A stretch of DNA of 64,000 nucleotides from a virus, in IMG/VR virus record IMGVR_UViG_3300022188_000226, positions 52,258 to 116,257 of that record; one strand, 5' to 3'. The position numbers and the translations under genes are program-made. Below are positions 8,375 to 62,836 of the stretch, piece after piece; position 1 is the stretch's first letter; the number at the start of each line of letters is the position of its first letter. The notes below the pieces were generated by a model, which saw only the letters and a list, made by a program, of their open reading frames with translations, made no database searches and had not been told where the DNA came from.

Positions 8375-8403
8375 TTGACAAAAGCTTTTGCATGTATTAT
8401 ATT
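8375..8403 (+). promoter_or_regulatory. Strong sigma70-like promoter ahead of structured unit B and dnaJ
   Basis: TTGACA at 8375-8380, 17 bp spacer with TGTAT, TATATT at 8398-8403. The predicted transcript start near 8410 is followed by an AACTTTA/TAAAGTT hairpin (8414-8435) and then immediately by structured unit B. Confidence 0.75.
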
Positions 8404-8441
8404 ATAATTAATAAACTTTAACAAAGTCTAAAGTTATTTAA

Positions 8442-8568
8442 AGCTCGATCGTGATCTTAATGGAGCTAGAAATATCTTCGTAAGATCTTTGGGATATTCA
8501 CCCGCACTGAAGAAAATGTTAACTTCTTCAGCGTGCGTTGTTAATGATTGTTAACGAAAAAGGATCGG
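8442..8568 (+). repeat. 127 nt structured unit, copy B, without any tnpB reading frame
   Basis: Same unit as 7155-7281 and 22890-23013, all four stems retained; the third stem is CACTGAAGAA/TTCTTCAGCG (8505-8533) with one A-C mismatch at 8506/8532. No tnpB coding sequence precedes it; instead it starts about 30 nt after a strong promoter. It ends 9 nt before the GTG of the dnaJ-like gene, so it is also that gene's 5' leader. Confidence 0.75.
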
Positions 8569-11128: not shown

Positions 11129-11171
11129 TAACTGCAATACAATTTTTTTAAAAGAAGTAAAGGAGAAGGGA

Positions 11172-13724: not shown

Positions 13725-13737
13725 TAAAAATTAGTAA

Positions 13738-13756
13738 TATATATATATATATATTA
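13738..13756. repeat. Short (AT)n run
   Basis: About ten AT dinucleotides between two genes, ending in TATTATAAT, which could serve as a -10 element although no matching -35 is evident. Confidence 0.6.
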
Positions 13757-13802
13757 TAATTAAAAAGGAGAGGTGGTAATTTTTTTTTGCCGTGAAAATT
13801 TT

Positions 13803-33323: not shown

Positions 33324-34406
33324 ATGATTTTAAGACGAGAAACTTCAAGTGGGTCTAATGACCTTAATGTAGTCTATCGCCCTTGTCTTGTTACCGAGAT
33401 GCTTGGTAACGAAACCAATAAGCGAATTATTAAGAATGCGTTAGACTCAGGAAAAGTTCCCCATACGCAGTTATTTACTGGAGATGCTGGGTGCGGTAAA
33501 ACTACGGCAGCAAAGATAATTGCTTTAGGGTTAAATTGTGAAGAGAATGGTGTTAGTTCTAATCCATGTTTAAAATGTAAGTCGTGTAGAACTATACTAG
33601 AAGGAAATAGTTTAGGGGTTAAAGAGATTAATGTAGGGCAGTCCGGCGGAAAAGATTATGTAGATGCAATGGTAAGAGAACTTCCATTGTCTCCTTTTGA
33701 TACGAGATACAAGATTTTAATCTTCGATGAAGCACACGAACTTACGACAGCCGCTAAAGATCTTCTCCTTAAGCCAATAGAAGCTGGCTATGAACATGTG
33801 TATTTCATTTTTTGTACAAATCAACCTGAAAAATTACGTAGCAAAAAGAAGGATGCTGGTGAAGCGTTTCTTGATAGGTGTTCTGTACTTAATTTTAGTA
33901 GAATACCCATAGAAAAAGTACGGGGTCTACTACAGAACATATGTGAGTTTGAGGGGTTTCACTACAATGTAGACGTGTTAGATTTAATTGCTGAGGAATC
34001 AAAAGGAGTACCACGTAATGCAATTGTGTGGGTAAACCAGGTAGCTACTGAAGGTTCTTGGCTTGTTAGTGCAGCTAAAGAAATCTGTAGTGTAATGTCA
34101 GATGAGGATGAACCTAGGGTTCTTGAACTATGTCGGGCACTTAATAAAGGTAGTTGGATAGAAGCTATCGAAATATTTGGTGGTATAAAGACAATCCCAG
34201 TAGAAACTGTTAGGATATCTGTATCTGGTTACTTTGTAAGTTGTTTGAAGAGGGCAAAGAAGTTTGGGGACGGTAAAAAATATTCAAGGGTTCTTGATAT
34301 AGTCACTATACCAATTTTTGAGCAAGGAAAACTAGCAGAACATAAGTGGTATAATTACATGTTTAAAATTGTTGATACTGTTTCTGCAGCCGGAAGGAGA
34401 GTTTAA
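33324..34406 (+). CDS. dnaX: DNA polymerase III clamp loader subunit, DnaX-like
   Basis: 360 residues. Walker A GDAGCGKTTAAKI at about 53; a four-cysteine zinc module CEENG...NPCLKCKSC at about 72-92 as in DnaX; Walker B YKILIFDEAHE at about 130-140; sensor 1 VYFIFCTNQPEKL at about 154; the C-terminal helical lid after 200. It loads the beta clamp encoded at 2-541. Overlaps the polymerase start by 1 bp. Long tau-specific C-terminus absent, as usual in phages. Confidence 0.9.
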   Translation: MILRRETSSGSNDLNVVYRPCLVTEMLGNETNKRIIKNALDSGKVPHTQLFTGDAGCGKTTAAKIIALGLNCEENGVSSNPCLKCKSCRTILEGNSLGVKEINVGQSGGKDYVDAMVRELPLSPFDTRYKILIFDEAHELTTAAKDLLLKPIEAGYEHVYFIFCTNQPEKLRSKKKDAGEAFLDRCSVLNFSRIPIEKVRGLLQNICEFEGFHYNVDVLDLIAEESKGVPRNAIVWVNQVATEGSWLVSAAKEICSVMSDEDEPRVLELCRALNKGSWIEAIEIFGGIKTIPVETVRISVSGYFVSCLKRAKKFGDGKKYSRVLDIVTIPIFEQGKLAEHKWYNYMFKIVDTVSAAGRRV

Positions 34407-40165: not shown

Positions 40166-43100
40166 ATGTTTATAGACCCTTTTCAGGAAAAAATTTGGAA
40201 AGATAAGTACCAATATAATGACGAGACATTCATACAATTTTGTTATAGAATTGCTGATAACATATTTAAAGATGATAAAAAACGTCACGCAGCACTTGTA
40301 GATTTTATTAAAAATTTTCGTGGACTATTTGGAGGCAGAATAAACTCTAATATAGGTGTAGATGAAGAAGGGCTAACCTTATTTAATTGTTTTATTGAGT
40401 CTATTGTAAAAAACCCCGATTCTCTAGAAGGTATTATGGATATGGTTACTAAATATGCTATTACTTTAAAGACTGAAGGAGGTGTTGGGTTTTGTGCAAA
40501 CTTTCTTCGGCCGGCAAAAACTTTAATTCGTAAAATAGGTGTTACAACGCCAGGAGCAATTAAATTTCTAGAGATATTTGACAAGACATCAGAAATAATC
40601 ACAGCAGGTAGTGTTGATAAAAATGATAGTTATCAAGGAGAACCCTCAAAGAAAAGTATAAGGAAAGGGGCTACCATGGTGACTATGAACATTAACCATC
40701 CTGATATTGAGGAGTTTATCGTTGCCAAAGCAGTACCGAACAGGTTGACTAAAATGAACATGTCAGTACTTGTTACAGATGCTTTTATGTATGCTGTTGA
40801 AAAAGATACTGATTGGGATTTATGGTTCCCTGATATTAATTTTGATAAGTATGACGATGAGTGGGATGGTAACTTTGAAAATTGGGGAGATAAAGGTTAT
40901 CCATTTGTCATATATAAGACTCTCCCAGCACGTGAATTATGGAATCTTCTTTTAAATAGTACTTATAATAGGAATGAGCCTGGTATTATTTTTATTGATA
41001 ATGCTAGACGTATGAACAACTTGCATTACTTGAATGGTAGTATGACGTCTACCAACCCTTGTCAGCCTTCTTGGGCAACCGTGATGACTCCAAACGGTAT
41101 ACGTATCATGGAGAATATACATGTTGGTTCTGTAATTTGGAGTGATGATGGATGGACTATAGTGACTAATAAAGCTTCTTCTGGACAAAAAAAAGTGTAT
41201 AAATATAAAACAACTGCATCTGTTTTTTATGGCACTGAAAATCATAAAATAGTTTCTGATGGCGTCAAGGTTGAGGTTTGTGATGCTTTATGTATTGATA
41301 CATCTGTAGGTCGTGCAGTGTGTCTTAATACTGCTAATAAAAATTCTACTACATATAACTGGCAGTCTGTTGTTGATGGTCTGCTTATAGGAGACGGGTC
41401 TGTTCACAAGGCGTCCAATTCTTTAATTTATTTATGTGTGGGAAAAAATGATAAAGACTATTTAGATAACTCATATCTCAAAGACTTTATACTTGCACAT
41501 CGTTCTGGAATAGATGACTATGCATATACAGTTAAAACAACACTTGAATCAAATGAGTTACCATTAACTTTTAAACGTAGAGTACCTAAAAAATATTTTG
41601 AAGCTGGCGGAGTAGAAGCGTGTTCGTTCTTAATGGGGTTGTTTTCAGCTAATGGTACTGTTATAACAAGAAAGGGCTCAATGTCAGTTAGATTGAAGGC
41701 CGCATCGAAGGCTCTTGTTGAGGATGTGCAGGTTATGTTGTCTTCTTTAGGTATAAGGTCTTTTATAACGACTAATAAAAAAACTAAAGTTAAGTTTGAC
41801 AATGGAGAATGTGAGAATAGAGAAAGTTATGATTTGGATATAATAGAACACACAGTTTCTTTTCAGAAAATAATTGGTTTTATACAGAATTATAAAAATG
41901 AGAAGTTGACTTTAATAAACAAAAGAAAGTTCTCTACAAAAGAAAAAATTTCTTTTGAAGTAGTAGAAAAAGAATTTATATCTGAAGAGGAAGTTTTTGA
42001 TATAACTGTTGATAATGATTCTCATACTTATTGGACTGGTGGGTGTAACGTTTCAAATTGTGCGGAGGTGGTTGGACACACAGGTCCTGAGTATTATAAC
42101 GGTGAGCTTATTGAACTTGGTGATGTATGTAACCTCGGATCCATTAATCTCACTAAATACTACGATATTACAGAAAATAAATTTAGTATGGATGAGTTTA
42201 AAGAAGACATAGATCTTATGATAAGGTCTTTAGATAATGTAATAGAAATATCTAATTATCCACTGAAGATGTATGAAGACGCTGCCAAATTAAAAAGAAA
42301 AATAGGGGTTGGTTTAATGGGCGTAGCCTCGCTTATGATGATGTCTAATATACGGTATGGAAGTAAAGAGTGTATTGATTTGTTAGAAGTAATTTTATCA
42401 GAATTCATTAATCAAGCGTATAGATCATCAGCCATACTCGCAAAAGAGGTAGGTCCTTTTCCTTTGTGGGATAAGAAAGCGTTACAAGGTGGATTTATTA
42501 AACACAGTGGAGTATTAAAGAAGGATACACTTGCTCTTATTAAGAAACACGGATTGCGGCATTCTGCTGTATCTGCCATTGCACCAAACGGTACTTTATC
42601 AATTGTGGCTGGTAATATTTCTGGTGGGTTGGAACCTATATTTGCCAAAGAGTTTACTCGTTGGAATAGGATTGAAGGAAAAAAGGTAGATTTTGAATAC
42701 CCAAACATACATAAAGGTGAGTGGTTCGAGACTGATTATCTTAAAGAACAGAGGGTAGCTGATGAAGTTATTCTTATATCTGAGGACGGTAAACATAGGG
42801 TTGATAAGAACAGCGGTTTGTGTAAGAATGTAACTATAATGGATTATGGATATAAAGCGGCTTTAAAGGCCGGGCACAACGAATTCGCTTGTGCTACAGA
42901 GTTAAGTATAGACGAGCATCTCGCTGTATTAAAGGTTTTTTCAAAGTATATTGATCAGTCATGTAGTAAATGTATATCTCTAGACTCCAGAATTAATACT
43001 GACAAAGGATTGGTTAAGTTAGGAAGTTTGTCTGATAATAGAGCAGTAGACACTTTTTGTGATATTGATTCCAAAGTGTTGGTACCTACAGAGAAAGGGC

Positions 43101-45001
43101 TTAAGCCTGTGAACCAGTTCTATTATAATGGGGAAGTATTAGGTAAAGAAGTAATAACCAAATCTGGGTTAGAATTGACTGGTAGTAATCAACATAGGAT
43201 TAGGGTATTAAATAACATTCACGAGTTGGAGTGGAAACGGTTAGATAGTTTAGTTGTAGGAGACTTGATAGCAGTTAAGCTAGGCAAGGATATTAGTTCA
43301 GAAAAAACTATTAGTCGTATTGTTGGTAAGAAGTTTAGTTATGACACTAAGAGGTGTAAACATATAACTATTCCTACACAATTAACTAAAAATTTATTAT
43401 GGTGGTTAGGTTGTATAGCTGCTGATGGTAACATTAACAGTGTCGGAGTACATTTATCCCAAGTATCTGGTATTGCTCTAGATAAATTTATCAGAGTTTC
43501 AGAAGAACTATTTGCAAGAAAGCCAGTTATAGTCAAAGATCATAGAAGAGATAAGTTATTTACAGCATCAATTAATTCTAAGGTTTTAGTTGAGTGGTTT
43601 AATTACATAGGGTTTTCTAAAGAAGAATTATCAGAAATTGTATTCGCGGCTCCGAAATTACTTAAGAAGTCTTTTGTTGAGGGGGTTACTTTAGATGGGT
43701 ACGTTACTGATGAGAGAGTTTGTTTAAAAACCGATAAAACTGAACGTTTTATTATGGATTTACAACTTATTTGTAACACTATTGGTATTCCAACTAGAAT
43801 TACAAAAAAATTCAATACACATTATGAAAAGTTTTATTATAACTTGTTTGTTTACTCTGATGGGGTTAACAAATTATCATCTTTTGTTTTTCCTGAGGAA
43901 CATAAACAGACTAAACTGTTGAAGTTATTAAACGGTAATAAAAATTATAGTAGAAAATCTTTTATAGATTATGGGTGTAGACTTCCTATAGATGATGTTA
44001 TGGTTCAACGTGTGTCTGACGTGGAAAAACAAGTGTTTAAGTCTAATAAACTATATAATATTTTTCATAGAATAACCAATGATGCTAAAGAAAGCAAGTC
44101 TCTAACAATGGACCAGCTTTTAGCAGTTTATACATTTAATAATACAGTACCGAAAGCATTAAATAATAATTATTTATTTACAGCGGTAGAAAGTGTTGAA
44201 GATAAGAAAGTAATTACGGCCGATATTGAGGTTAAAGACGAGCATAATTATATTGCTAATGGTTTTATTTCTCATAACACCATTAATCTTCCTGCTGATA
44301 TTGGTTTTGAAAATTTTAAGAAGTTGTATGGCGAAATTCATGGTTACGGTATTAAGGGTTGTACGACATACAGAGCAGGTACTTCAGTAGCCGTGCTTGA
44401 GACACAGAAGAAAGAAAAAAATAAATCTATTAAGGAACAGCAGAAAGAATTTCTAGATGTTTTTAAAAATCAGGAAAACGGAGACACTATAGTTCAGAAT
44501 GTTAGTTTGCCAGAACAGTATCCAGCTAAAGGTTTTATTTTAAAATCTGATGGTGGAAAAAAATGGTATATTCACGTAGCTTTTAAAGATATACAATGTA
44601 CTCAGCCATTTGCAATTTTTGTAAATACTAATAATAGGGAAGACAATGTTGTTACTTACAATGCTCTTGAAATGATGGTAAATGTTGCTAAATCTAAGGG
44701 TATTAGGGGAGATTTAATTGAAGAGGTTCAGCGTAAGTATGGTTATCAAAAAAATCCTGTAAAAATTTGTAGGATGCTTGGATTCCTTCTTAGGCATAAC
44801 ATAGATGTGTACACTATTGTTATGGGTTTAGATGGACTAGGTACAGCTCCAGGGACATTTGTATTTAGAATTAAAAAATTTCTTTCGCAATTTGTCACTA
44901 AAATTGGAGACCCATTATTGTGTCCTGAATGTGGAGAAATAGCCATAGTTTTTGAAGCTGGCTGTTTTGAGTGTAAGAACTGTGGGCATTCTAAATGTTA
45001 G
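40166..45001 (+). CDS. nrdJ: Class II (adenosylcobalamin-dependent) ribonucleotide reductase with two inteins
   Basis: 1611 residues; inteins of 333 and 436 leave 842. Extein features: TEGGVGFCANFLRP-like substrate loop with its thiol Cys, NEPGIIFIDNARRMNN, TSTNP splicing to CAEVVG (the NPCxE radical site), VCNLGSINLTKYYD, GLMGVASLMMM, SAIAPNGTLSIVAGN, SCSK splicing to TINLPADIG, and a C-terminal zinc module CPECG...CKNCGHSKC typical of NrdJ. No small subunit gene is near, which supports class II. Both inteins disrupt catalytic motifs. Good AGGAGGA site. Confidence 0.94.
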   Translation: MFIDPFQEKIWKDKYQYNDETFIQFCYRIADNIFKDDKKRHAALVDFIKNFRGLFGGRINSNIGVDEEGLTLFNCFIESIVKNPDSLEGIMDMVTKYAITLKTEGGVGFCANFLRPAKTLIRKIGVTTPGAIKFLEIFDKTSEIITAGSVDKNDSYQGEPSKKSIRKGATMVTMNINHPDIEEFIVAKAVPNRLTKMNMSVLVTDAFMYAVEKDTDWDLWFPDINFDKYDDEWDGNFENWGDKGYPFVIYKTLPARELWNLLLNSTYNRNEPGIIFIDNARRMNNLHYLNGSMTSTNPCQPSWATVMTPNGIRIMENIHVGSVIWSDDGWTIVTNKASSGQKKVYKYKTTASVFYGTENHKIVSDGVKVEVCDALCIDTSVGRAVCLNTANKNSTTYNWQSVVDGLLIGDGSVHKASNSLIYLCVGKNDKDYLDNSYLKDFILAHRSGIDDYAYTVKTTLESNELPLTFKRRVPKKYFEAGGVEACSFLMGLFSANGTVITRKGSMSVRLKAASKALVEDVQVMLSSLGIRSFITTNKKTKVKFDNGECENRESYDLDIIEHTVSFQKIIGFIQNYKNEKLTLINKRKFSTKEKISFEVVEKEFISEEEVFDITVDNDSHTYWTGGCNVSNCAEVVGHTGPEYYNGELIELGDVCNLGSINLTKYYDITENKFSMDEFKEDIDLMIRSLDNVIEISNYPLKMYEDAAKLKRKIGVGLMGVASLMMMSNIRYGSKECIDLLEVILSEFINQAYRSSAILAKEVGPFPLWDKKALQGGFIKHSGVLKKDTLALIKKHGLRHSAVSAIAPNGTLSIVAGNISGGLEPIFAKEFTRWNRIEGKKVDFEYPNIHKGEWFETDYLKEQRVADEVILISEDGKHRVDKNSGLCKNVTIMDYGYKAALKAGHNEFACATELSIDEHLAVLKVFSKYIDQSCSKCISLDSRINTDKGLVKLGSLSDNRAVDTFCDIDSKVLVPTEKGLKPVNQFYYNGEVLGKEVITKSGLELTGSNQHRIRVLNNIHELEWKRLDSLVVGDLIAVKLGKDISSEKTISRIVGKKFSYDTKRCKHITIPTQLTKNLLWWLGCIAADGNINSVGVHLSQVSGIALDKFIRVSEELFARKPVIVKDHRRDKLFTASINSKVLVEWFNYIGFSKEELSEIVFAAPKLLKKSFVEGVTLDGYVTDERVCLKTDKTERFIMDLQLICNTIGIPTRITKKFNTHYEKFYYNLFVYSDGVNKLSSFVFPEEHKQTKLLKLLNGNKNYSRKSFIDYGCRLPIDDVMVQRVSDVEKQVFKSNKLYNIFHRITNDAKESKSLTMDQLLAVYTFNNTVPKALNNNYLFTAVESVEDKKVITADIEVKDEHNYIANGFISHNTINLPADIGFENFKKLYGEIHGYGIKGCTTYRAGTSVAVLETQKKEKNKSIKEQQKEFLDVFKNQENGDTIVQNVSLPEQYPAKGFILKSDGGKKWYIHVAFKDIQCTQPFAIFVNTNNREDNVVTYNALEMMVNVAKSKGIRGDLIEEVQRKYGYQKNPVKICRMLGFLLRHNIDVYTIVMGLDGLGTAPGTFVFRIKKFLSQFVTKIGDPLLCPECGEIAIVFEAGCFECKNCGHSKC
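41060..42058 (+). other. Intein 6, compact, partly decayed endonuclease (NrdJ radical site)
   Basis: 333 codons, the shortest here. Cys1 (CQPSWATVMTPNGIRI) after STNP, ends NVSN before Cys+1 of CAEV; penultimate His is replaced by Ser. Block B YGTENHKI. First endonuclease motif VDGLLIGDGSV keeps its acid, second MGLFSANGTV has Asn instead. Confidence 0.92.
42971..44278 (+). other. Intein 7 with LAGLIDADG endonuclease (NrdJ SCSK/TINLP site)
   Basis: 436 codons. Cys1 (CISLDSRINTDKGLVKL) after SCSK, ends ISHN before Thr+1. Block B ELTGSNQHRI, endonuclease motifs WLGCIAADGNI and EGVTLDGYV both with Asp, C-terminal VITADIEVKDEHNYIANGF. Canonical splicing residues. Confidence 0.93.
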
Positions 45002-52434: not shown

Positions 52435-53826
52435 ATGTCTTACAAAATTTCAGGAAGTATCGGTACAGATAGTAGAATACTGGTTTTCGATGAAACCACT
52501 GGCACGATAACTGGAAACGAATTAGTTTCCAGTGGAGAATACGAAGTTCTAGATGTTGGCGAAGGGGCTAAAACTGTTTTAGCTAGGAAAAGTGACGGTG
52601 AAACGATCGGTTACGGGAATATTTCACCGATATTTTACGAGGGCTCCGGGTTACTATATACTTTGGATAATCCTAATCCGTATGGTACTTCTACAGATGA
52701 TTATTTCGGTATGAGTACCGCTATTGATGGAAATAATTGCATAGTAGGTGCTCGTGGAGAAAGTAATAATATTGGAAAAGCATACATTTTTGACGTAACT
52801 ACCGGAAATTTATTACATACTTTAGATAATCCTAATGCTTATGGTACTTCTTCTGGTGATAATTTTGGTATTAGTGTTGCCATTTCTGGAAATAAATGCA
52901 TAGTTGGTGCTAATTATGAGGATGATGCTGGTGGTGGTAATTCTGGAAAAGCATATATTTTCGACGTAACTACCGGAAATCTTTTACAAACTTTAGATAA
53001 TCCAAATGCTTATGGTACTTCTCAGGACGATCGTTTCGGTTATAGTGTGTCTATTTCTGGAGACAGGTGTATAGTAAGTGCTTTAAGAGAAGACGATGCT
53101 GGTGGAACAACTTCAGGAAAAGCTTACATTTTCAACGTAACTACCGGAGCCTTATTGCAAACTTTGGATAATCCTAATGCGTACGGTACTTCTGCAAGTG
53201 ATTATTTCGGTTGGAGTGTTTCTATTTCTGGAAATAAATGTATAGTAGGTGCCATTTTGGAAGACGAGGCTGGTGGTTCAAGTCCTGGAAAAGCTTATAT
53301 TTTCAACGTAACTACCGGAAATCTATTACATACTTTAGATAATCCTAACGCATACGGTATTTCTGCAGGTGATCAGTTTGGTTACAGTGTCGCCATTTCT
53401 GGGAATAATTGTATAGTGGGTGCTCGTTATGAAGATGATGCTGAGGGTAGTCAGTCAGGAAAAGCATATATTTTCGACGTAACTACCGGAAATCTTTTAC
53501 AAACTTTAGATAATCCTAACGCATACGGTACTTCTGCAACTGATTGGTTTGGTTACAGTGTCGCCATTTCTGGGAATAATTGTATAGTGGGTGCCCATGG
53601 AGAAGATGATACTGGGGGTACCACTTCAGGAAAAGCCTATATTTTCGATGTAATTACTGGAAATTTAGTACGCACGTTAGATAATCCTAATGCGTACGGT
53701 ACTTCTGCAGATGATTGGTTTGGTAATAGTGTCGCCATTTCTGGAGATAATTGTATAGTAAGTGCTCATTATGAAGACGACACTAGCGGAACAAACTCAG
53801 GAAAAGCATATATTTTTGCTGTTTAA
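52435..53826 (+). CDS. Seven-bladed beta-propeller protein, paralogue 1
   Basis: 463 residues after AGGAGAAT. Residues 1-72 form a compact beta domain (GSIGTDSRILVFDETTG, GEYEVLDVGEGAKTVLARKS) shared by all three paralogues, probably the virion anchor. Then come seven repeats of 57-58 residues, LLxTLDNPNAYGTS-xx-DxFG-xxVAISG-xxCIVxA-xxEDDA-xG-xxSGKAYIFDVTTGN. This FG-GAP/integrin-like pattern closes a seven-blade propeller. Sequence varies mainly at fixed positions just after GTS, after FG and around EDD, in loops. A receptor- or glycan-binding role is inferred. No signal peptide. Confidence 0.85.
   Translation: MSYKISGSIGTDSRILVFDETTGTITGNELVSSGEYEVLDVGEGAKTVLARKSDGETIGYGNISPIFYEGSGLLYTLDNPNPYGTSTDDYFGMSTAIDGNNCIVGARGESNNIGKAYIFDVTTGNLLHTLDNPNAYGTSSGDNFGISVAISGNKCIVGANYEDDAGGGNSGKAYIFDVTTGNLLQTLDNPNAYGTSQDDRFGYSVSISGDRCIVSALREDDAGGTTSGKAYIFNVTTGALLQTLDNPNAYGTSASDYFGWSVSISGNKCIVGAILEDEAGGSSPGKAYIFNVTTGNLLHTLDNPNAYGISAGDQFGYSVAISGNNCIVGARYEDDAEGSQSGKAYIFDVTTGNLLQTLDNPNAYGTSATDWFGYSVAISGNNCIVGAHGEDDTGGTTSGKAYIFDVITGNLVRTLDNPNAYGTSADDWFGNSVAISGDNCIVSAHYEDDTSGTNSGKAYIFAV
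52651..53823 (+). repeat. Tandem repeats, 7 units of about 171-174 bp, propeller paralogue 1
   Basis: Coding tandem repeats, one per blade, with long near-identical stretches (for example the TTTAGATAATCCTAATGC-type segments) suited to homologous recombination. Confidence 0.9.
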
Positions 53827-53840
53827 AAAGAAATGATTCA

Positions 53841-54077
53841 ATGAAAATATATAAATTAGATTTACATAGAATGCTCCATAGGGACGTAAGAAGAACAGTT
53901 ATAAGATTTATTGAGGAACATTGGGGAAAACAAACTGAGCTAGAAATAGTTACAGGTAACAGTGCTAAAATGAAAAGTATAGTAATCGATGTTTTAGACG
54001 AATACAAATTAGATTACCAAATAGGCAGACCACTAGATCTTAATAATAAGGGGTACATAATTACATGGATAAGATAA
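53841..54077 (+). CDS. Smr-domain-like small protein
   Basis: 78 residues. YKLDLHRMLHRDVRRTVIRF matches the Smr LDLHG...A...V motif (HRM for HGM), ELEIVTGNSAKMKSIVIDVL corresponds to the ITGxGxHS stretch (here VTGNSAKM), and NNKGYIITWIR to the final strand. Smr domains bind or nick nucleic acids and act on collided ribosomes or DNA junctions. Only the core domain is present. Overlaps the next gene by 13 bp. Confidence 0.75.
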   Translation: MKIYKLDLHRMLHRDVRRTVIRFIEEHWGKQTELEIVTGNSAKMKSIVIDVLDEYKLDYQIGRPLDLNNKGYIITWIR

Positions 54078-54247
54078 TTTGTGTAAAAACTTATTGTAGA
54101 GGAAAGTTAGTTACTAGTAAAATTTTTGAAGATATTCCGTTGGAATATTGCACAGAGAAAGCAGAGTTTTTGGAGAACGGTATGAGAATAGTAATTTATA
54201 CTGCACCTAAAAATTTAAAAAGATTATTAAAGACGGTACAAATGTAA
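54065..54247 (+). CDS. Hypothetical small protein
   Basis: 60 residues, basic, beta-rich (CVKTYCRGKLVTSKIFEDI, GMRIVIYTAPKNLKRLLKTV). Overlaps the Smr-like gene by 13 bp, suggesting coupling. No motif recognised. Confidence 0.65.
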   Translation: MDKIICVKTYCRGKLVTSKIFEDIPLEYCTEKAEFLENGMRIVIYTAPKNLKRLLKTVQM

Positions 54248-54275
54248 ATATAATGTGTTTTAGAAAAAAAAATAC

Positions 54276-54303
54276 TTGACAAATGGAAAATATGTATTAT
54301 ATT
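54276..54303 (+). promoter_or_regulatory. Sigma70-like promoter
   Basis: TTGACA 54276-54281, 16 bp spacer with TATGTAT, TATATT 54298-54303; leader hairpin AGCGA/TCGCT at 54319-54334. Confidence 0.82.
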
Positions 54304-54364
54304 ATAATCTAATGTGGGAGCGACTTCTATCGCTTCTGTAACTAAGACAAGGGAGGTATTTACT

Positions 54365-54571
54365 ATGTTTGGAGAAATTGTAGCATTAGTTATTGGTGTA
54401 GCAGGCGGAGCAATCGGAATGTTTTTCGTGGCTAAGAACAACGAAGAGAAGTTTACCGCTGCTTTAGGTATTGATTTCGAGCGGATGGTCAATGACCTGC
54501 TAGACAAGACCGAAGTCGATGAAAAAGTTAAGAAATTTATCGACGATGTTAAAGCAAAGTTAAAAAAGTAG
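54365..54571 (+). CDS. Small membrane-anchored protein
   Basis: 68 residues from ATG 54365, chosen for GGGAGGT about 8 nt upstream; a GTG at 54314 lies in the leader hairpin. Residues about 3-22 (GEIVALVIGVAGGAIGMFFV) are one membrane helix with Gly zippers, followed by an amphipathic charged helix (MVNDLLDKTEVDEKVKKFID). Own promoter, so presumably expressed strongly. Role unknown; holin-like or membrane-associated scaffold functions are possible. Confidence 0.78.
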   Translation: MFGEIVALVIGVAGGAIGMFFVAKNNEEKFTAALGIDFERMVNDLLDKTEVDEKVKKFIDDVKAKLKK

Positions 54572-54572
54572 C

Positions 54573-54600
54573 TTGACAAACTGAATTTCAGTATTATATT
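54573..54600 (+). promoter_or_regulatory. Sigma70-like promoter of the first tRNA cluster
   Basis: TTGACA 54573-54578, 16 bp spacer, TATATT 54595-54600; followed by a CTGGG/CCCAG leader hairpin. Confidence 0.8.
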
Positions 54601-54640
54601 ATAAATCGGCTGGGGGCAAAAGTTCCCAGACCCAAGATAA

Positions 54641-54712
54641 TCCAGGGTAGCTCAGCAGGCGGAGCAGACGGCTGTTAACAACCTCGTCGGAGGTTTGAAT
54701 TCTTCTCTCGCA
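54641..54712 (+). tRNA. Degenerate tRNA-Asn(GTT)-like
   Basis: GTAGCTCAGCAGGCGGAGC is a good D-arm, CTGTTAA an Asn anticodon loop and GGAGGTTTGAATTCTTC a T-arm. The 3' acceptor strand TCTCGCA should pair with TGCGAGA but the 5' strand is TCCAGGG, and the anticodon stem GACGG/CAACC does not pair. Probably a damaged or chimeric tRNA, or one needing RNA editing. Confidence 0.55.
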
Positions 54713-54726
54713 AAAGATAACAACAC

Positions 54727-54800
54727 TGGGGCATGGTGTAAAGGTAGCACACAAGGTTTTGGTCCTTGAAGTCTGGGTTCGATCCCTAGTGCCCCAGCCA
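54727..54800 (+). tRNA. tRNA-Gln(TTG)
   Basis: Acceptor TGGGGCA/TGCCCCA, anticodon stem CAAGG/CCTTG with loop TTTTGGT (TTG, codon CAA), T-arm GGGTTCGATCCC, and encoded GCCA end. Complete cloverleaf. Confidence 0.95.
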
Positions 54801-54827
54801 TTAGAGAAAGAATTGTTTAAGACAAAA

Positions 54828-54898
54828 GCGAGTATCGTCCAGTGGTAGGACCTCAGCTTTCCAAGCTGATGACGGGGGTTCAAATCCCTTTACTCGCT
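54828..54898 (+). tRNA. tRNA-Gly(TCC)
   Basis: Acceptor GCGAGTA/TACTCGC, anticodon stem TCAGC/GCTGA with loop TTTCCAA (TCC, codon GGA), T-arm GGGGTTCAAATCCCT. CCA not encoded. Complete cloverleaf. Confidence 0.95.
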
Positions 54899-54937
54899 CA
54901 ATAAAATAAAAATACTGTATGATTTATAGGAGAATAG

Positions 54938-55117
54938 ATGGTAAAACGAATTAATATGAACGATATAGCCCGTGTTGTTGCTTCAAAAGAAGGTGGTAGT
55001 GTTGAAGTAAACATTGCCCAAATTAAAGAGGTCATGAGAATTTTTCTCGAAGAACTTTCTGTTTATGAAGATGATGAAATTCTCGAAGTGGTTAAACGGT
55101 ATAGAAAAGAGGAGTAA
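54938..55117 (+). CDS. Small conserved-looking phage protein
   Basis: 59 residues, ATG after TAGGAGAATAG. MNDIARVVASKEGGSVEVNI, then QIKEVMRIFLEELSVY and EDDEILEVVKRYRKEE: a short two- or three-helix protein of a type common in prophages and plasmids. Lies between tRNA-Gly and the basic protein below. Function unknown. Confidence 0.75.
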   Translation: MVKRINMNDIARVVASKEGGSVEVNIAQIKEVMRIFLEELSVYEDDEILEVVKRYRKEE

Positions 55118-55195
55118 AATAATGATTTATAGATTAATTTTATCTTGCGGAGGTAGCCCCATGACGTAAAACCCCTATAAAGGAGGTGATAAGTC

Positions 55196-55372
55196 ATGGG
55201 TGAACATAAAAGCGGTAAGAAAAATCGCAAATACGGTCGGTCTGACCGTAGACCTTCGCACACTCGTTATAACATGGAAGAGCGTTGGGCTAAGAATAAA
55301 GCACGTCGTATCGCTAAACAAGCTCGTAAAGAGGCGAAAAAACATGCTAAACTAGCTCACAAGAACGGATAA
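55196..55372 (+). CDS. Very basic small protein
   Basis: 58 residues, ATG 5 nt after AGGAGGTGAT. MGEHKSGKKNRKYGRSDRRP start and KARRIAKQARKEAKKHAKLA helix; about 40 percent K, R or H. Probably binds nucleic acid or ribosomes. It has one of the strongest ribosome binding sites in the window and a terminator directly after it, so abundant expression is likely. Confidence 0.8.
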   Translation: MGEHKSGKKNRKYGRSDRRPSHTRYNMEERWAKNKARRIAKQARKEAKKHAKLAHKNG

Positions 55373-55386
55373 TAACCTTTTACTAT

Positions 55387-55425
55387 GGGGTCTCCTCTGC
55401 TTTAGGGGGCCCCTTGTTTTAAATT
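55387..55425 (+). terminator. Rho-independent terminator
   Basis: GGGGTCTCCT (55387-55396) pairs with AGGGGGCCCC (55404-55413) with two G-T pairs, followed by TTGTTTTAAATTTTT. Confidence 0.85.
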
Positions 55426-55430
55426 TTTAC

Positions 55431-55458
55431 TTGACAAACGAAAAAGAATGATTATATT
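55431..55458 (+). promoter_or_regulatory. Sigma70-like promoter of tRNA-Pro
   Basis: TTGACA 55431-55436, 16 bp spacer, TATATT 55453-55458, ending about 11 nt before the tRNA. Confidence 0.82.
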
Positions 55459-55469
55459 ATAAAAAGACT

Positions 55470-55541
55470 CGGGATGTAGTCGCGGGGAGCGACGCCTGCT
55501 TTGGGAGCAGGAGGCGGTGAGTTCAACTCTCGCCATCCCGA
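55470..55541 (+). tRNA. tRNA-Pro(TGG)
   Basis: Acceptor CGGGATG/CATCCCG, anticodon stem CCTGC/GCAGG with loop TTTGGGA (TGG, codon CCA), T-arm with GAGTTCAACTC. Own promoter. Confidence 0.93.
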
Positions 55542-55606
55542 CAAATTTACACAGGAGTCAGCACAATAGTTACATATATTTATTTTAAATGTACTGTTTT
55601 TTACAC

Positions 55607-55634
55607 TTGACAAATGGAAAATATGTATTATATT
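55607..55634 (+). promoter_or_regulatory. Sigma70-like promoter of the tmRNA
   Basis: TTGACA 55607-55612, spacer identical to the promoter at 54276 (AATGGAAAATATGTAT), TATATT 55629-55634. Confidence 0.85.
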
Positions 55635-55693
55635 AATAATGTAACTTATTTATAACTGAGGGAGTCCTTTGTTGGATTACCTTTACAAAATAC

Positions 55694-56061
55694 GGGGGTG
55701 AATTGGATTCGACGTGGTGAAAGAAGCTAAAGATTCGATGCGTAGACGGTACAGACTACGTAAAAACTGTGCAAAAATTATAACTTGCAATTCTATACTT
55801 GATTATGCCTGCGAAATGCTTGAGGCTTCTAAGCCACATAGCGTCAATGGCAACGTTATGGCAGCTATTTAGTAGTTGCCATGGGGTTTGTGAGAACCTA
55901 GCAACAGAATCTCACACAATGTTTGATATTAGTAATCTAACACAGTAGGGTATCAATCCCCTTAATGATTGATTGGTGGAGGCCAGCTGTTTTGGCCCTA
56001 TTATCATCGTCAACCCTTTAGAAGAATCATTGCGGACGCGGTTTCGATACCGCCACCTCCA
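55694..56061 (+). ncRNA. ssrA: Transfer-messenger RNA
   Basis: 5' end GGGGGTGAATTGGATTCGACG and 3' end GGACGCGGTTTCGATACCGC then CACCTCCA are the conserved tmRNA termini; GGGGGTG pairs with CACCTCC with one G-T. A CGTAG/CTACG pseudoknot-1-like stem (about 55740-55770) is followed 10 nt later by GCA (55771), the expected resume codon. From GCA the frame runs 33 codons to TAG TAG (ending NVMAAI). A shifted frame gives CKNYNLQFYT and stops at TGA just before a GCCT/AGGC stem. One-piece form. Rescues stalled ribosomes and tags nascent proteins. The tag is atypical. Confidence 0.93.
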
Positions 56062-56094
56062 CATAACAAATTAACTTACATTTAGGAGATTAAC

Positions 56095-57498
56095 ATGTCT
56101 TATAAAATTTCAGGAAATATCGGTACTGACAGCAGAATACTGGTTTTCGATGAAACCACTGGTACAATAACTGGAAACGAATTAGTTTCCAGTGGAGAAT
56201 ACGAAGTTCTAGATGTTGGAGAAGGGGCTAAAACAGTTTTAGCCAGGAAAAGTGACGGTGAGACGGTTGGTTACGGGAATATCTCACCGATATTTTACGA
56301 GGCTTTCGGATTACTTCATACACTGGATAATCCTAATAAATACGGTACGTCTGAAAGTGATTATTTCGGAGGTAATGTCGCTATTTCTGGAAATAAATGT
56401 ATAGTAGGTGCTCATGCTGAAGATGATGCTGGCGGTACAAGTTCAGGAAAAGCCTATATTTTCGACGTAACTACCGGAAACCTTTTATATACTTTAGATA
56501 ATCCTAATGCATATGGTACTTCTGCAGGTGATTATTTTGGTTACAGTGTCGCTATTTCTGGAGATAAATGTATAGTGGGTGCTTTTCATGAAGATGATAC
56601 CGGCGGTACAAATTCTGGAAAAGCCTATATTTTCGACGTAACTACCGGAAATCTTTTACATACTTTAGATAATCCTAATGCATATGGTACTTCAACAAAC
56701 GATTATTTTGGTACTATTGTCGCTATTTCTGGAGATAAATGTATAGTGAGTACTTATGCAGAAGACGATGCTAGTGGAACAACTTCAGGAAAAGCCTATA
56801 TTTTCGATGTAATTACCGGAAATTTATTACATACTTTGGATAATCCTAATGCATATGGTACTTCAACAAACGATTATTTTGGCGGGGCTGCCGCTATCGA
56901 TGGAAATAAATGTATAGTGAGTGCCAATAGTGAAGACGATGCTGGCGGTACGGATTCAGGAAAAGCCTATATTTTCGACGTAAGTACCGGAAACCTTTTA
57001 CACACTTTAGACAATCCTAATGTATATGGTACTTCTGCACAGGATTATTTCGGTATGTCTGTTGCTATTTCTGGAGATAAATGTATAGTTAATGCTCCTT
57101 ACGAAGACGATGCTAGTGGAACAACTTCAGGAAAAGCCTATATTTTCGACGTAACTACCGGAAACCTTTTATATACTTTAGATAATCCTAATGCATATGG
57201 TACTTCTGAAGGTGATCGTTTCAGTAGCAGTGTAGCTATTTCTGGAGATAAATGTATAGTTGGTGCTCAGTATGAAGACGAGGCTGGAGGATCAAGTTCT
57301 GGAAAAGCCTATATTTTCGACGTAACTACAGGAAATCTTTTACACACTTTAGACAATCCTAATGTATATGGTACTTCTGCACAGGATTATTTCGGTATGT
57401 CTGTTGCTATTTCTGGAGATAAATGTATAGTAGGTGCTTCCGCTGAAGATGACGCTGGTGGAGACTATTCAGGAAAAGCCTATATTTTTGCTGTTTAG
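56095..57498 (+). CDS. Seven-bladed beta-propeller protein, paralogue 2
   Basis: 467 residues after TTAGGAGAT. Same N-terminal beta domain (1-72) and seven 57-58-residue blades as the gene at 52435, nearly identical in DNA over the N-terminal part. Blades differ at the same loop positions (for example NKYGTSESDYFGGNVAISG in blade 1 and NAYGTSAGDYFGYSVAISG in blade 2). Last blade ends SGKAYIFAV as in the other two genes. Located directly after the tmRNA. Upstream 25 bp are shared with the one-blade gene at 62924. Probably an adhesin or decoration protein. Confidence 0.85.
   Translation: MSYKISGNIGTDSRILVFDETTGTITGNELVSSGEYEVLDVGEGAKTVLARKSDGETVGYGNISPIFYEAFGLLHTLDNPNKYGTSESDYFGGNVAISGNKCIVGAHAEDDAGGTSSGKAYIFDVTTGNLLYTLDNPNAYGTSAGDYFGYSVAISGDKCIVGAFHEDDTGGTNSGKAYIFDVTTGNLLHTLDNPNAYGTSTNDYFGTIVAISGDKCIVSTYAEDDASGTTSGKAYIFDVITGNLLHTLDNPNAYGTSTNDYFGGAAAIDGNKCIVSANSEDDAGGTDSGKAYIFDVSTGNLLHTLDNPNVYGTSAQDYFGMSVAISGDKCIVNAPYEDDASGTTSGKAYIFDVTTGNLLYTLDNPNAYGTSEGDRFSSSVAISGDKCIVGAQYEDEAGGSSSGKAYIFDVTTGNLLHTLDNPNVYGTSAQDYFGMSVAISGDKCIVGASAEDDAGGDYSGKAYIFAV
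56311..57495 (+). repeat. Tandem repeats, 7 units of about 171-174 bp, propeller paralogue 2
   Basis: One unit per blade. Blades 5 and 7 share long identical stretches (NVYGTSAQDYFGMSVAISGD), a sign of recent internal copying. Confidence 0.9.
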
Positions 57499-58383: not shown

Positions 58384-59379
58384 ATGAGTATAAAAGAACA
58401 ACTGTATGCACCATTTACAAACATTCAGTCACGTAGAGGCCGCGGCGGTACATATGATTATGTATCTTGGAAAGCCGTAGCTGATCGTATGAATGAATCG
58501 TTTGGTGTAGGATGGTCCAGTGAAGTAGTAAACCAGGAAATTGTGGGAGAAAATGTAGTAGTTCGAGTTCGTGTACTTGCTACAAACCCAGAGTCTGGTG
58601 CCATTCAATATCAGGAAGGTTACGGTGGTGCGAAAAATGATGTAGCTGCTGAAGCAGGTAATCCATTTAAGTCTGCATATTCTAAAGCATTTAAAGACGC
58701 TTGTAAGAAATGGGGAATAGGATTATATTTGGACGAAGATGTTGAGCCTTCGTCTTCTACTAGTAAAATACCTACTGGCTATACAGGAAAAGAAATGGGC
58801 GTTCCGAATACACCCAACACAACACCTACAACAGAGCCACCGCGTGTAGTACAACAGATGCCAAAAACACCTACGTTTCCAGTAGACACACCAGAAGTTA
58901 AGAAAAATTTCACGGAACCAAATATAATAACTCCATTACCAACAAATCAAATGCCAGCAGCAGGGGGGTTGCCGATACCTCCAGGTATAAGTATGAAAAT
59001 GAGTTCTGGTATTGTTGTTAAACAGGAGACTCCAGGAGTTAAAGTTGTGGCTGAACAAGAGCAAGCCCCACCAACTCCACCACCGGTACAGCAGACAATG
59101 CCAACTCCGCCTGTTGTAAATTTGAGTGCCGGTGAGAAACCAATGGTTACTAAAGCACCTACAATTAACAACGGTGCCCCTGAGAGTATTTCTGATGTAC
59201 AAAAAGCAGCTCTTCATAGCATCTTAAATATTAATGGTGTCGAATATGAAACATTAGTGACAGAAACTTTCGCTGCTAATGGCATTACTAAAACCCCAAT
59301 CCCGTCTCCTGATGATTTAACATATCAGGAAGCAGTTTATGTGGTTAAGTACGGAAATGATAAATTTAGAAGACGTTAA
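58384..59379 (+). CDS. Rad52-like single-strand annealing protein
   Basis: 331 residues after AAAGGAGAA. Residues about 1-120 fit the Rad52/22 family SSAP core: LYAPFTNIQSRRGRGGTYDY, VSWKAVADRMNESFGVGWSS, GYGGAKNDVAAEAGNPFKSA, YSKAFKDACKKWGIGLYLDE. Residues about 130-270 are a proline-rich disordered linker; the last 60 (ISDVQKAALHSILNINGVEY) form a small helical domain of unknown role. It anneals complementary ssDNA, giving this phage a RecA-independent recombination route. Confidence 0.85.
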   Translation: MSIKEQLYAPFTNIQSRRGRGGTYDYVSWKAVADRMNESFGVGWSSEVVNQEIVGENVVVRVRVLATNPESGAIQYQEGYGGAKNDVAAEAGNPFKSAYSKAFKDACKKWGIGLYLDEDVEPSSSTSKIPTGYTGKEMGVPNTPNTTPTTEPPRVVQQMPKTPTFPVDTPEVKKNFTEPNIITPLPTNQMPAAGGLPIPPGISMKMSSGIVVKQETPGVKVVAEQEQAPPTPPPVQQTMPTPPVVNLSAGEKPMVTKAPTINNGAPESISDVQKAALHSILNINGVEYETLVTETFAANGITKTPIPSPDDLTYQEAVYVVKYGNDKFRRR

Positions 59380-59388
59380 GGAGTTAAT

Positions 59389-61332
59389 ATGTCAGAAAGT
59401 AATTATAAAGTTCATAAGGAATGGATTAAAGAAGCTGAATTTGAAATATTGATTCTTGAAATCCCGAGAGACGACATTGAAGATAAGTTAGCTTACTTAG
59501 CACGTGATAAAGGAAGTATTACAAAAAGTTTCTTTGAGGATTTTGTTATAGCAACATGTGTTGCAAACATTAACCAACTTCTATTTCACATTAAACAACA
59601 ACACATTGATCCTCCTAACTTGATGAATGTAAGGGCTGAGGTTATGGGGCTTATTTTGGCAATTAATTCAACATTAGACCCGGAAAACCTTGTAATTAAC
59701 CATAACGCAGTAGTAAAAATTAAAGATGAAGACGGATTAAAAGACGATGAGCGTTTACTTACAGATAATAAAGCATGGAATGTTTCTTATTATGATGAAG
59801 TAATAGACCAGTACGGTACAGATGAAGTCGAAGATAAAAATGTACCTGTAAATAATGATAAGAAAAAAAGACTTCCTTCTGGCTTAAAAAATATTGATGA
59901 TCTTGAATTTGAAGTAATAAAACAGTGGTGGAAACGGATTAATAAGTACATTGAAGTTAAAAAGTTTGATGAAGAGTGTATGGCCACCATGTTGAGTCAG
60001 AGATATTTTCATAACAGGTCAAGTTTTCAGACATATATTGTTTCTGTGTGTGTAGTTAATTCAGAAGACTTGTTTATAATGCTCGATAATATGGGTATTC
60101 CTAGTCGAGTAGCTCCGCCAATACTAATGCACGAAGTTTATGAATTATGTAAGGAGATTAATCCTTTTCTAACTTACGAGAACGCAAAGGAATTTATAGA
60201 GGAATTAAACGACGATGATGATGAGGACGACGATAATAAAAATAATTCTCCTCGTAGAGCTCCTAATAGAATGTCTTCACACGCAAGACAACCGTCTAAA
60301 AAAAAGAAACATACTAAGAAAAAGTTCAAAGATGTTCCTAAAGCCGACTTTCTAAGACTTGCATCTGCTATGAAAGTGTTTGTTATTGGTCAAGATAAAG
60401 CTATTGAAAACATTGTAGAGGCTGTACAAAGGGCTTGTGTAGGACTGAAAGATCCTAATAAACCGATAGGTTCGTTTTTATTTGCTGGTAGAACTGGTGT
60501 TGGTAAAACTCTTACTACAAAGGTACTAGCTGACGAATTAATTAAGGACCGTAATAACCTAGTTAATATAGACTGTTCTGAATACTCAGCAGATCACGAA
60601 TACGCTAAACTGATAGGAGCCCCGTCCGGATATGTAGGACATGAACAAGGTGGTATTCTTACTAATGCTATTATAGAGAACCCGTTTAGTGTGATTGTTT
60701 TTGATGAAGTAGAAAAAGCAAGCCATAAAGTTCATGAGCTCATGCTTCAGATTCTGGAGGAGGGCAGGCTTACAGACGGTAAAGGACAGAAAGTATATTT
60801 TAAAGATTGTATTATTATTATGACATCTAATGTTGGAGTATATGAAGTCGATGAAGTAAAGAAAACTATCGGATTTGGTGATGTGGCAGACCTTACAGAA
60901 AAACGTAGGATTACAGCTATTGATAAAGCTATAAAGAAGAAATTTAAACCTGAGTTCTTGAATAGAATAGACGCAATAGTTCATTTTAATACATTAAAAA
61001 AAGTTGATTACATGAGAATTATCGACCTTGAACTTTTTAAGCTTAACGAGAATCTCAAAGCTAATGACACTGAGTACAAAGATCTTACAATTGATTTTGA
61101 TGAAAAAGTTAGTAATTTTATTTATAAAAACAGCATCGATGAAGACTACGGTGCTAGACCACTAAAGAGATATATAGAGAAAGAGATTTCTAATCCTCTT
61201 TCTTCAGCATTGCTTAATAAGAATGTTGATGATAGTACAAAAGTAAATGTTTGTATTAAAAAAAGAAAGATACATTTTAAATTTGAAGCTGATTTTTTTA
61301 AGAGTGAAGAACATAAAGAAATAGGTGTATAG
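59389..61332 (+). CDS. ClpA/ClpB-type AAA+ ATPase with non-standard N-terminus
   Basis: 647 residues. About 1-300 are helical and charged, unlike the Clp N-domain and without a first AAA module; a KKKKHTKKK patch lies near 305. The AAA+ module from about 320 is Clp D2-like: FVIGQDKAIENIVEAVQRA, FLFAGRTGVGKTLTTKVLA (Walker A at about 367), GAPSGYVGHEQGGILTNAI (pore loop GYVG), FSVIVFDEVEKASHKVHELM (Walker B), LTDGKGQKVYFKD, IIMTSNVG (sensor 1), FKPEFLNRIDAIVHF (arginine finger) and DYGARPLKRYIEKEI (sensor 2). The ClpP-docking IGF loop is not obvious. Probably an unfoldase, not a protease partner. Confidence 0.88.
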   Translation: MSESNYKVHKEWIKEAEFEILILEIPRDDIEDKLAYLARDKGSITKSFFEDFVIATCVANINQLLFHIKQQHIDPPNLMNVRAEVMGLILAINSTLDPENLVINHNAVVKIKDEDGLKDDERLLTDNKAWNVSYYDEVIDQYGTDEVEDKNVPVNNDKKKRLPSGLKNIDDLEFEVIKQWWKRINKYIEVKKFDEECMATMLSQRYFHNRSSFQTYIVSVCVVNSEDLFIMLDNMGIPSRVAPPILMHEVYELCKEINPFLTYENAKEFIEELNDDDDEDDDNKNNSPRRAPNRMSSHARQPSKKKKHTKKKFKDVPKADFLRLASAMKVFVIGQDKAIENIVEAVQRACVGLKDPNKPIGSFLFAGRTGVGKTLTTKVLADELIKDRNNLVNIDCSEYSADHEYAKLIGAPSGYVGHEQGGILTNAIIENPFSVIVFDEVEKASHKVHELMLQILEEGRLTDGKGQKVYFKDCIIIMTSNVGVYEVDEVKKTIGFGDVADLTEKRRITAIDKAIKKKFKPEFLNRIDAIVHFNTLKKVDYMRIIDLELFKLNENLKANDTEYKDLTIDFDEKVSNFIYKNSIDEDYGARPLKRYIEKEISNPLSSALLNKNVDDSTKVNVCIKKRKIHFKFEADFFKSEEHKEIGV

Positions 61333-61340: not shown

Positions 61341-61841
61341 ATGGGAACAATGCAAGAACTGGAAGAAGATATTGCTTTAATGCTTCATCAATTTCGTGTG
61401 GATGTAAGAAGAACTACAATGAGAGATGCATCAGTACAATTTGTAGTTGATGATTTTGGGTTAATAATCTGCTGTATTGATAGACTAGATTATACCCAAA
61501 TAGATGATATAGTTAGTAATAAGTTCGAGGGATGGAGGGCTGTATTTATATCGACTAGTGATAGTATGACAGAAAAGAGGTACGAAGTTCTTTGGGCTTT
61601 AATACGGTGTGGTTACATGAAATGGTTGAGATATAGTTTTCCTAGACAGGTAAAAAATGTATTAGCAGGACATGACAATTTAGGACAGAGAATTATAGAA
61701 GAGAGATTAAGGATTTGGAATGATAAGCCTAAGTTTAAGTATCTTATTGACGATAATAAGGTTGTCTTGAAGAACGGAGTACGGTTGGAGCTTTCAAATG
61801 ATCCGAGTTTTTTTGACTTTATGCCAGAAGAGGAGGTGTGA
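61341..61841 (+). CDS. Hypothetical protein
   Basis: 166 residues. Alternating helices and strands (VQFVVDDFGLIICCIDRLDY, GWRAVFISTSDSMTEKRYEV) suggest a compact alpha/beta fold; a nuclease-like core is conceivable but no catalytic set can be named. Overlaps the next gene's alternative GTG. In line with the ClpA/B-like gene. Confidence 0.8.
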   Translation: MGTMQELEEDIALMLHQFRVDVRRTTMRDASVQFVVDDFGLIICCIDRLDYTQIDDIVSNKFEGWRAVFISTSDSMTEKRYEVLWALIRCGYMKWLRYSFPRQVKNVLAGHDNLGQRIIEERLRIWNDKPKFKYLIDDNKVVLKNGVRLELSNDPSFFDFMPEEEV

Positions 61842-61846
61842 CTCAT

Positions 61847-62047
61847 ATGTTTAAAGAGAATGGTAGATTTAAACCCGCGAAAAAAGAAGAGTTGGCTAAT
61901 TTAAAAGGTAAAAATATGATTTGTCCTAAGTGTCAAGAGTATTCTATTGTAACTAGTGCTAATTTTTCTGACATTAGATGTAGTGAGTGTGGTACTGTTT
62001 TAGTAGAGGTTGGGATGTCTGCTGCTGGTAAATCTACAGGCAAGTAA
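61847..62047 (+). CDS. Small zinc-ribbon protein
   Basis: 66 residues from ATG 61847, 8 nt after AGGAGGTG; a GTG at 61838 overlaps that site. MICPKCQEYSIVTSANFSDI and RCSECGTVLVEVG form a CxxC...CxxC ribbon at about residues 26-49. Flexible basic N-terminus. Function unknown. Confidence 0.75.
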   Translation: MFKENGRFKPAKKEELANLKGKNMICPKCQEYSIVTSANFSDIRCSECGTVLVEVGMSAAGKSTGK

Positions 62048-62071
62048 GTAAGTTGGAGGCAAAGAACTATT

Positions 62072-62836
62072 ATGACAGATGAAAACAATGGTAATGGTAA
62101 CGGGGTTGAGGAGCATAAGGAGTCTAATGATGGACTTCAACAACTTCTTGATTCAACGTATCCACTGTTGCAAAAATTCAGAGACGCTTGTTCTGGTACT
62201 TATAAGCATTCTCAAGCTTTAGCGTCTATGGTTGAAGGGGTAGCTTTACCACTTGGACTCGATGTGATGAAGTTGAAAGTGGCAGCTCAGTATCATGACA
62301 TAGGAAAGATGTTTTGTCCTAAATATTTTACTGAAAATCAGGTGGAAGATGAAAGCCCGCATGAAAAATTGAGTCCAATTATGAGCTATAATGTTATAAC
62401 TAGACACGTATCCGATAGTGTTGCTATACTTATTAATGACCATAATTTTCCTAGAGACATTATAGAAATTATTAGTCAGCATCATGGTACGTCAGTACTT
62501 AAATACTTCTTTAAGAAGTCTGGTTCTGATGTAGAAGATATGTTTAGGTATAAAACTAATAAACCGACCTGTATTGAGGCGGCGATACTGATGATCTGCG
62601 ACCACATAGAAGCCACCTCTAGGTCATTGGTGCAGTCTAATAAGTTTGCCCCTACAAAGGCCATAGAGGGCACTATAAATGGATTAATTAATGATGGGCA
62701 GTTAGACGATGTAGTCATGAGGCTTGGGGACTTAAAAAAGATTAAAGAAGCATTAGCCAAGGAATTGGAAGGGACTTATCAAAAGCGTGTAGATTATGAC
62801 AAGGCAGAGGAAGAAAGGGAAACTGCTGTAGAGTAA
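62072..62836 (+). CDS. Soluble HD phosphohydrolase of the PgpH (c-di-AMP phosphodiesterase) type
   Basis: 254 residues without any membrane segment. After 30 acidic residues come DACSGTYKHSQALASMVEGV (first His), AAQYHDIGKMFCPKYFTENQ (the HD pair at about 75), ESPHEKLSPIMSYNVITRHV (His), IIEIISQHHGTSVLKYFFKK (the HHGT motif at about 136) and CIEAAILMICDHIEATSRSL. Each block matches the cytosolic HD domain of PgpH/YqfF, which in bacteria follows an extracellular 7TMR-HDED region and seven membrane helices; these are all missing here. Predicted to hydrolyse c-di-AMP or a related cyclic dinucleotide in the host. Confidence 0.85.
   Translation: MTDENNGNGNGVEEHKESNDGLQQLLDSTYPLLQKFRDACSGTYKHSQALASMVEGVALPLGLDVMKLKVAAQYHDIGKMFCPKYFTENQVEDESPHEKLSPIMSYNVITRHVSDSVAILINDHNFPRDIIEIISQHHGTSVLKYFFKKSGSDVEDMFRYKTNKPTCIEAAILMICDHIEATSRSLVQSNKFAPTKAIEGTINGLINDGQLDDVVMRLGDLKKIKEALAKELEGTYQKRVDYDKAEEERETAVE

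Follow-up and report, generated by a model that had tools for sequence, protein, structure and literature searches.

Cyclic di-AMP (c-di-AMP) is essential in many bacteria, and the locus described here raises the question of what a phage might do with the catalytic HD domain of PgpH, a c-di-AMP phosphodiesterase, once that domain has been cut loose from the membrane. The stretch of DNA that was analysed, called the window below, is 64,000 nucleotides long and makes up the right-hand end of an IMG/VR virus record of 116,257 bases, a linear fragment (G000:C1:52258-116257). At 62072..62836 on the + strand it holds a gene with an ATG start for a 254-aa protein, a predicted stand-alone PgpH-type HD phosphodiesterase. 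The sequence GGAGG at 62055..62059 (+), 12 nt upstream, reads as its probable ribosome-binding site.

A preliminary description of this DNA had called the product a soluble PgpH-like protein, and each part of that assignment held up. All five HD sequence blocks that it quoted are found in the translation of ORF 62072-62836. A sequence search of the PDB gave the HD domain of Listeria PgpH (Lmo1466; 4s1b/4s1c) as the closest solved structure, matching residues 29-242 with an E-value of 2.4e-41. A profile built from eight phage HD proteins matched the same domain at 1.7e-55, and the next solved sequence at 0.073. The HMM search that the description had proposed placed both the HDIG model of NCBIfam (TIGR00277, 2.8e-14) and Pfam HD (1.4e-12) above their cut-offs. 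The Pfam scan returned HD models only, without PF07698, the model for seven transmembrane helices. It also gave no match to the extracellular 7TMR-HDED domain, and the HD domain occupies residues 29 onward of the 254. The hydropathy scan found no transmembrane segment in the protein, every 19-residue stretch of which lies below the threshold of 1.6, so the membrane and extracellular parts are missing by both approaches, as had been claimed.

The structure of the HD protein was predicted with AlphaFold from 42 sequences, with a mean pLDDT of 92.8. VIA-align superposed this model on 4s1c with a Z score of 30.2 and an rmsd of 1.4 Å over 207 aligned residues; the best HD-GYP structure scored 13.1. 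The top entry in Foldseek was again PgpH-HD (2.6e-15, TM 0.94 on the target, rmsd 1.5), and the first entry of any other kind came at 2.4e-3. The strong fold matches in both programs are HD proteins throughout. In sequence and in fold, the phage protein is far closer to PgpH than to other HD families.

The metal ligands of Listeria PgpH are described as H514, H543, D544, H580, H604, H605 and D648 (PMC8177086). By alignment, the predicted equivalents in the phage protein are H46, H75, D76, H112, H137, H138 and D177, and these seven residues are invariant in all 49 phage proteins of the family introduced below; among 80 bacterial proteins, each is kept by 79-80. The preliminary description had named missing metal ligands as grounds for giving up its reading; the ligands are predicted to be present, by an alignment with which the modelled fold agrees. 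Lys547 of PgpH is the catalytic lysine and is said to stabilise the oxyanion (PMC12072042); its equivalent, K79, is kept in 49 of 49 phage proteins. E88, N89, H97, S105, G139 and Y160 are likewise invariant in the phage proteins and common to nearly all bacterial PgpH. At a few positions the phage proteins consistently differ from bacterial PgpH, for example R111, S116 in place of G, G219 and E231. Four bacterial rows of this alignment lacked the motif used for trimming and were trimmed by position.

Other known enzymes share less with the phage protein than PgpH does. HD-GYP proteins, among them the ones predicted for jumbo phages (PMC7824862), belong to the same superfamily and have the H...HD...H...HH...D motif in common with it, but the HHExxDGxGYP-type motif or GYP triad occurs in 0 of 38 phage proteins and the fold distance is much larger. 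Small alarmone hydrolases and the RelA-SpoT HD domain (HD_4) are in the HD superfamily too, and one such protein is a neighbour in one lineage; the phage protein, however, has no HD_4 match in Pfam at E-values up to 1 and reads HDIGK rather than HDxxED. GdpP and DhhP (DHH-DHHA1) presumably act on the same substrate and give the same product, and DhhP is likewise soluble, but their catalytic domain is unrelated and the phage protein has no DHH match in Pfam (E up to 1).

The gene is far from a single case. Relatives were sought in IMG/VR with increasingly broad queries: the window's protein by itself yielded one, an alignment of two rows yielded seven, and one of eight rows yielded forty hits, 37 of them true relatives. 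A scan with a second profile found 47 loci, 11 of them on new contigs. Together with the window, the family therefore stands at 49 contigs at least (48 further ones), between 5 and 315 kb long, where the preliminary description had a single gene, and it is specific to phages. The three hits L045-L047 are other HD proteins and were excluded from all family counts. The 49 proteins are 230-269 aa long, the copy on L179 being cut by the contig end, and 48 of them have no hydropathy segment; the only one, in the L041 protein, sits inside the HD domain. At least 487 bacterial relatives were confirmed in a GTDB-based genome collection. The best 80 of these include two that are truncated at contig ends; the remaining 78 have 4-9 hydropathy segments, and judged by their sequences these 80 are membrane PgpH.

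Two trees were built to compare the phage and bacterial proteins. In a quick tree of 38 phage and 80 bacterial rows, all phage rows fall on one side of a branch with an SH-aLRT support of 100, and this branch, which divides them from all bacterial PgpH, is long. For a mixture-model tree the phage set was reduced to 44 rows by removing five near-copies; seven bacterial rows were dropped because of long branches, odd placement or contig cuts, and 34 of the remaining 73 were picked at random. In this tree the 44 phage rows are split from the 34 bacterial rows at 100/100 (bootstrap/SH-aLRT), so that the phage proteins stand outside the bacterial PgpH tree on their own side of the branch. Since both trees are unrooted, the claim that they carry is limited to this separation and to a probable single origin of the phage proteins, and does not extend to a bacterial donor. 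Retention of the gene across a divergent, phage-only clade implies a selected function. The long branch and the consistently differing positions mean that a shift of specificity is possible.

These data also bear on whether the gene is phage DNA at all, or an ordinary host fragment in a bacterial contig misclassified as viral. The record encodes a phage-type DNA polymerase, a DnaB helicase, a primase, a clamp loader, an exonuclease, a ribonucleotide reductase and a dCMP deaminase; the longer ORFs of the window lie nearly all on one strand, and large proteins, one with a weak tail match, are encoded in its left part. This replication gene set and the one tail-protein match agree with the earlier placement of the gene in a phage. 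Terminase_6N was not found in the window's record, a linear fragment, which leaves some room for a host origin; of 38 records that carry the HD gene, 8 have it. The same soluble architecture recurs across the 49 contigs, the gene order is conserved in two lineages, and the phage proteins split cleanly from the bacterial ones. In a sample of 297 genomes from one phylum, 190 had a match at 1e-30, and among the matches listed all frames were at least 293 aa long, the shortest ending at a contig edge. Taken together, these observations make a misclassified host fragment extremely improbable.

Phage collections gave a warning of their own. A tblastn search of INPHARED (50,697 phage records) returned eight matches, of which six were inspected, all six being unannotated UNVERIFIED records. 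Five of them (OR846595, OR848126, OR848882, MT835511 and MT837542) encode full-length PgpH of 517-735 aa with 7-8 hydropathy segments, and in the sixth the gene is truncated where the contig stops. They look like bacterial contamination, a point in favour of suspecting the same of the window; the five are probably contaminants of the phage collection, and the INPHARED matches were rejected as phage genes and none was counted. No annotated phage record matches the HD protein, and PHROGs has no family for it. The modelled viral proteins of BFVD gave no match to its model at an E-value of 0.001 or better, and a megablast search of window positions 40000-64000 against phage records found nothing. 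An IS-type transposase gene (phrog_506) lies within the phage record at window 21628-22692; a search of 395 genomes from one phylum found no close relative of it (E 1e-70).

The activity, the substrate and the benefit to the phage that we infer from sequence, fold, ligand conservation, soluble architecture and separate lineage are as follows, with a probability of roughly 60%. The HD protein would be a constitutive cytoplasmic c-di-AMP phosphodiesterase, a PgpH HD domain without anchor and sensor, that drains the c-di-AMP of the host. By homology with the Listeria enzyme, H46, H75, D76, H112, H137, H138 and D177 would bind two Mn/Fe ions, and these would activate a water to attack one phosphodiester of 3',3'-c-di-AMP; K79 would stabilise the resulting oxyanion, and the product would be 5'-pApA. 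c-di-AMP is favoured as the substrate because the PgpH-type residues and the fold are kept. The parts that the phage protein lacks would be those with which PgpH senses signals, so the host pool could be drained during infection free of host regulation, and potassium/osmolyte and stress signalling could be reset in favour of the phage. In 4s1b the crystallised Listeria HD domain (222 aa) binds c-di-AMP by itself, so the domain does not need the membrane part to be stable. A diadenylate cyclase was found in 0 of the 38 phage records searched and in 11 of 14 control genomes, which means that any substrate would have to come from the host. In c-di-AMP-using bacteria, low levels of the messenger have been connected with lysis and with cell enlargement (PMC10243994), and depletion could thus ease host takeover or lysis.

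The chemistry and the fold of PgpH are already known, and it is the phage-specific soluble branch that appears new; a search of the openly licensed papers in PMC turned up no description of PgpH, or of a c-di-AMP hydrolase, in a phage. If the reading is true, phages may drain an essential messenger from the cells they infect. A soluble PgpH branch across many large phages offers a concrete and easily purified candidate for a c-di-AMP-destroying enzyme, lets one test whether phages attack housekeeping second messengers besides dedicated immune signals, and could become a soluble laboratory tool with which to deplete cellular c-di-AMP.

The main rival to c-di-AMP depletion is an anti-defence role, in which the HD protein would hydrolyse an antiphage cyclic dinucleotide, CBASS-type or another adenine-containing signal, and so fill the role that Acb1 has, but with a fold unrelated to it. 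Acb1 has a 2H phosphoesterase fold, and the catalytic folds of Acb1 and Apyc1 are unrelated to HD. The comparison of Acb1 and Acb2 with the HD protein is one of purpose only. No anti-CBASS nuclease entry is among the VIA-align matches listed, an absence that carries no weight as evidence. The phage nucleases Acb1 and Apyc1, which act against CBASS and Pycsar (PMC9117128), possibly serve the same end of removing a host nucleotide signal. Phages are described as degrading defence nucleotides (PMC9117128; PMC12657218), and HD-GYP and HD-alarmone phosphodiesterases of jumbo phages have been predicted to counter nucleotide signals (PMC7824862). NAD-salvage genes, a group proposed to act against nucleotide-based defence, are often found in the same phages, with nicotinate phosphoribosyltransferase (NAPRTase) in 11 of 49 family records; the copy in G338 has an in-frame TAG. 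Against this, PgpH reportedly does not cut c-di-GMP or other cyclic dinucleotides (PMC8177086), and the phage proteins retain the PgpH-type residues. The PADLOC models gave only weak Cas3-HD matches on the window and no defence gene beside the HD gene. An anti-defence role is thus a possibility that we hold to be unlikely. An HD hydrolase that acts on something else, whether a linear nucleotide, the end of an RNA or a metabolite derived from nucleotides, and that was recruited for the nucleic-acid metabolism of the phage, would suit the recombination and nuclease genes that surround the HD gene in the window's lineage and the functional diversity described for the HD superfamily (PMC8177086). 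We consider it improbable, as PgpH is by far the nearest of the HD families in sequence and fold and the residues E88 to Y160 listed above are invariant as in nearly all bacterial PgpH.

A further alternative adds a partner to the HD protein. In one lineage, a downstream protein resembling ppGpp hydrolases could remove ppGpp, so that the PgpH domain would be freed from its inhibitor and the two alarm signals of the host would fall silent. The pairing is suggestive because (p)ppGpp is described as an inhibitor of PgpH (PMC10243994). In this lineage the HD gene is followed by a small zinc protein (7 of 49 loci) and then by the HD_4 protein (6 of 49 loci), which is encoded on the same strand at a distance of 0.3-0.8 kb from the HD gene. 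The HD_4 protein matches MESH1 and small alarmone hydrolases with E-values from 6e-13 to 4e-8, and an HD_4 domain occurs somewhere in 10 of 38 records, 8 of them above the curated cut-off. One such gene is at L037:9103-9633, with relatives in L025, L027, L030, L036 and L038. The number of independent genomes behind these six loci is small, however: L036-L038 are near copies, and a single sample number covers both L025 and L027. In L030 the HD_4 frame is split in two. The window's record has no HD_4 match. A two-enzyme eraser of this kind is therefore doubtful. The wider picture, in which a dedicated and old c-di-AMP eraser is carried by large phages that infect c-di-AMP-using bacteria and is paired in some lineages with a ppGpp hydrolase, removing the inhibitor of PgpH and silencing both alarms, is one that we put forward tentatively.

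A point against the single-enzyme reading, c-di-AMP depletion by the HD protein, is that the genes around it in the window belong to recombination and AAA+ functions and not to signalling. Upstream, all on the + strand, are a weakly matching Erf/Rad52-like single-strand annealing protein (58384..59379, syntenic in 8 of 38 loci), a 647-aa ClpA/ClpB-like AAA+ protein (59389..61332, 9 of 49 loci), a 166-aa protein with no Pfam or PHROG match (61341..61841, 8 of 38 loci) and a 69-aa zinc-ribbon protein (61838..62047). The zinc ribbon is a separate gene that ends 24 nt before the HD gene, and clustering placed relatives of it in the same position in five further loci. Downstream is a nuclease of the Endonuc_Holl family (PF10107; 63371..63793, +); in 10 of 49 loci the HD gene is followed by a relative of this nuclease. 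The gene order typical of the window's lineage (8 of 38 loci) is an Erf/Rad52-like gene, a Clp-type AAA+ gene, a conserved protein of 161-178 aa, usually a zinc ribbon, and the HD gene, and the Holliday-resolvase-like nuclease often comes next. The clustering of neighbours covered 38 loci, and the 11 later loci enter only the neighbour counts given over 49 loci.

Several other features of these genomes were recorded along the way. In the phage nearest to the window (L001), a run of NAD-salvage genes lies at 10824-14975 (-), 2-6 kb from the HD gene, and encodes an NAD synthase, a NadD-like protein, a nicotinate phosphoribosyltransferase and an isochorismatase-fold protein that may be a nicotinamidase. 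In L030 (7529-7984) and L032 (7561-8034), the gene directly before the HD gene touches or overlaps its start. The L030 product matches Phage_30_3 of Pfam, the T4 Gp30.3 family; a NADAR-like reading of this gene, made by eye, was dropped in view of that match and of a best solved-structure E-value of 0.06. A 162-kb viral contig (L045) encodes an HD-GYP-like protein with the motif HHEKLNGTGYP at 7953-8561, which is a separate case of a virus record with an HD enzyme of the cyclic-dinucleotide type.

Within the window, a DNA polymerase of 1479 aa (34406-38845) and a ribonucleotide reductase of 1611 aa (40166-45001) are overlong. In short internal stretches, these two and a protein of 1198 aa (14375-17971) have matches in common to PHROGs of mixed enzymes, which suggests possible inteins. 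Three tRNA genes (Gln, Gly and Pro) lie at 54727-55542 between ORFs of 463 and 467 aa (window 52435-57498), and these two flanking ORFs have weak, short matches to the same PHROGs.
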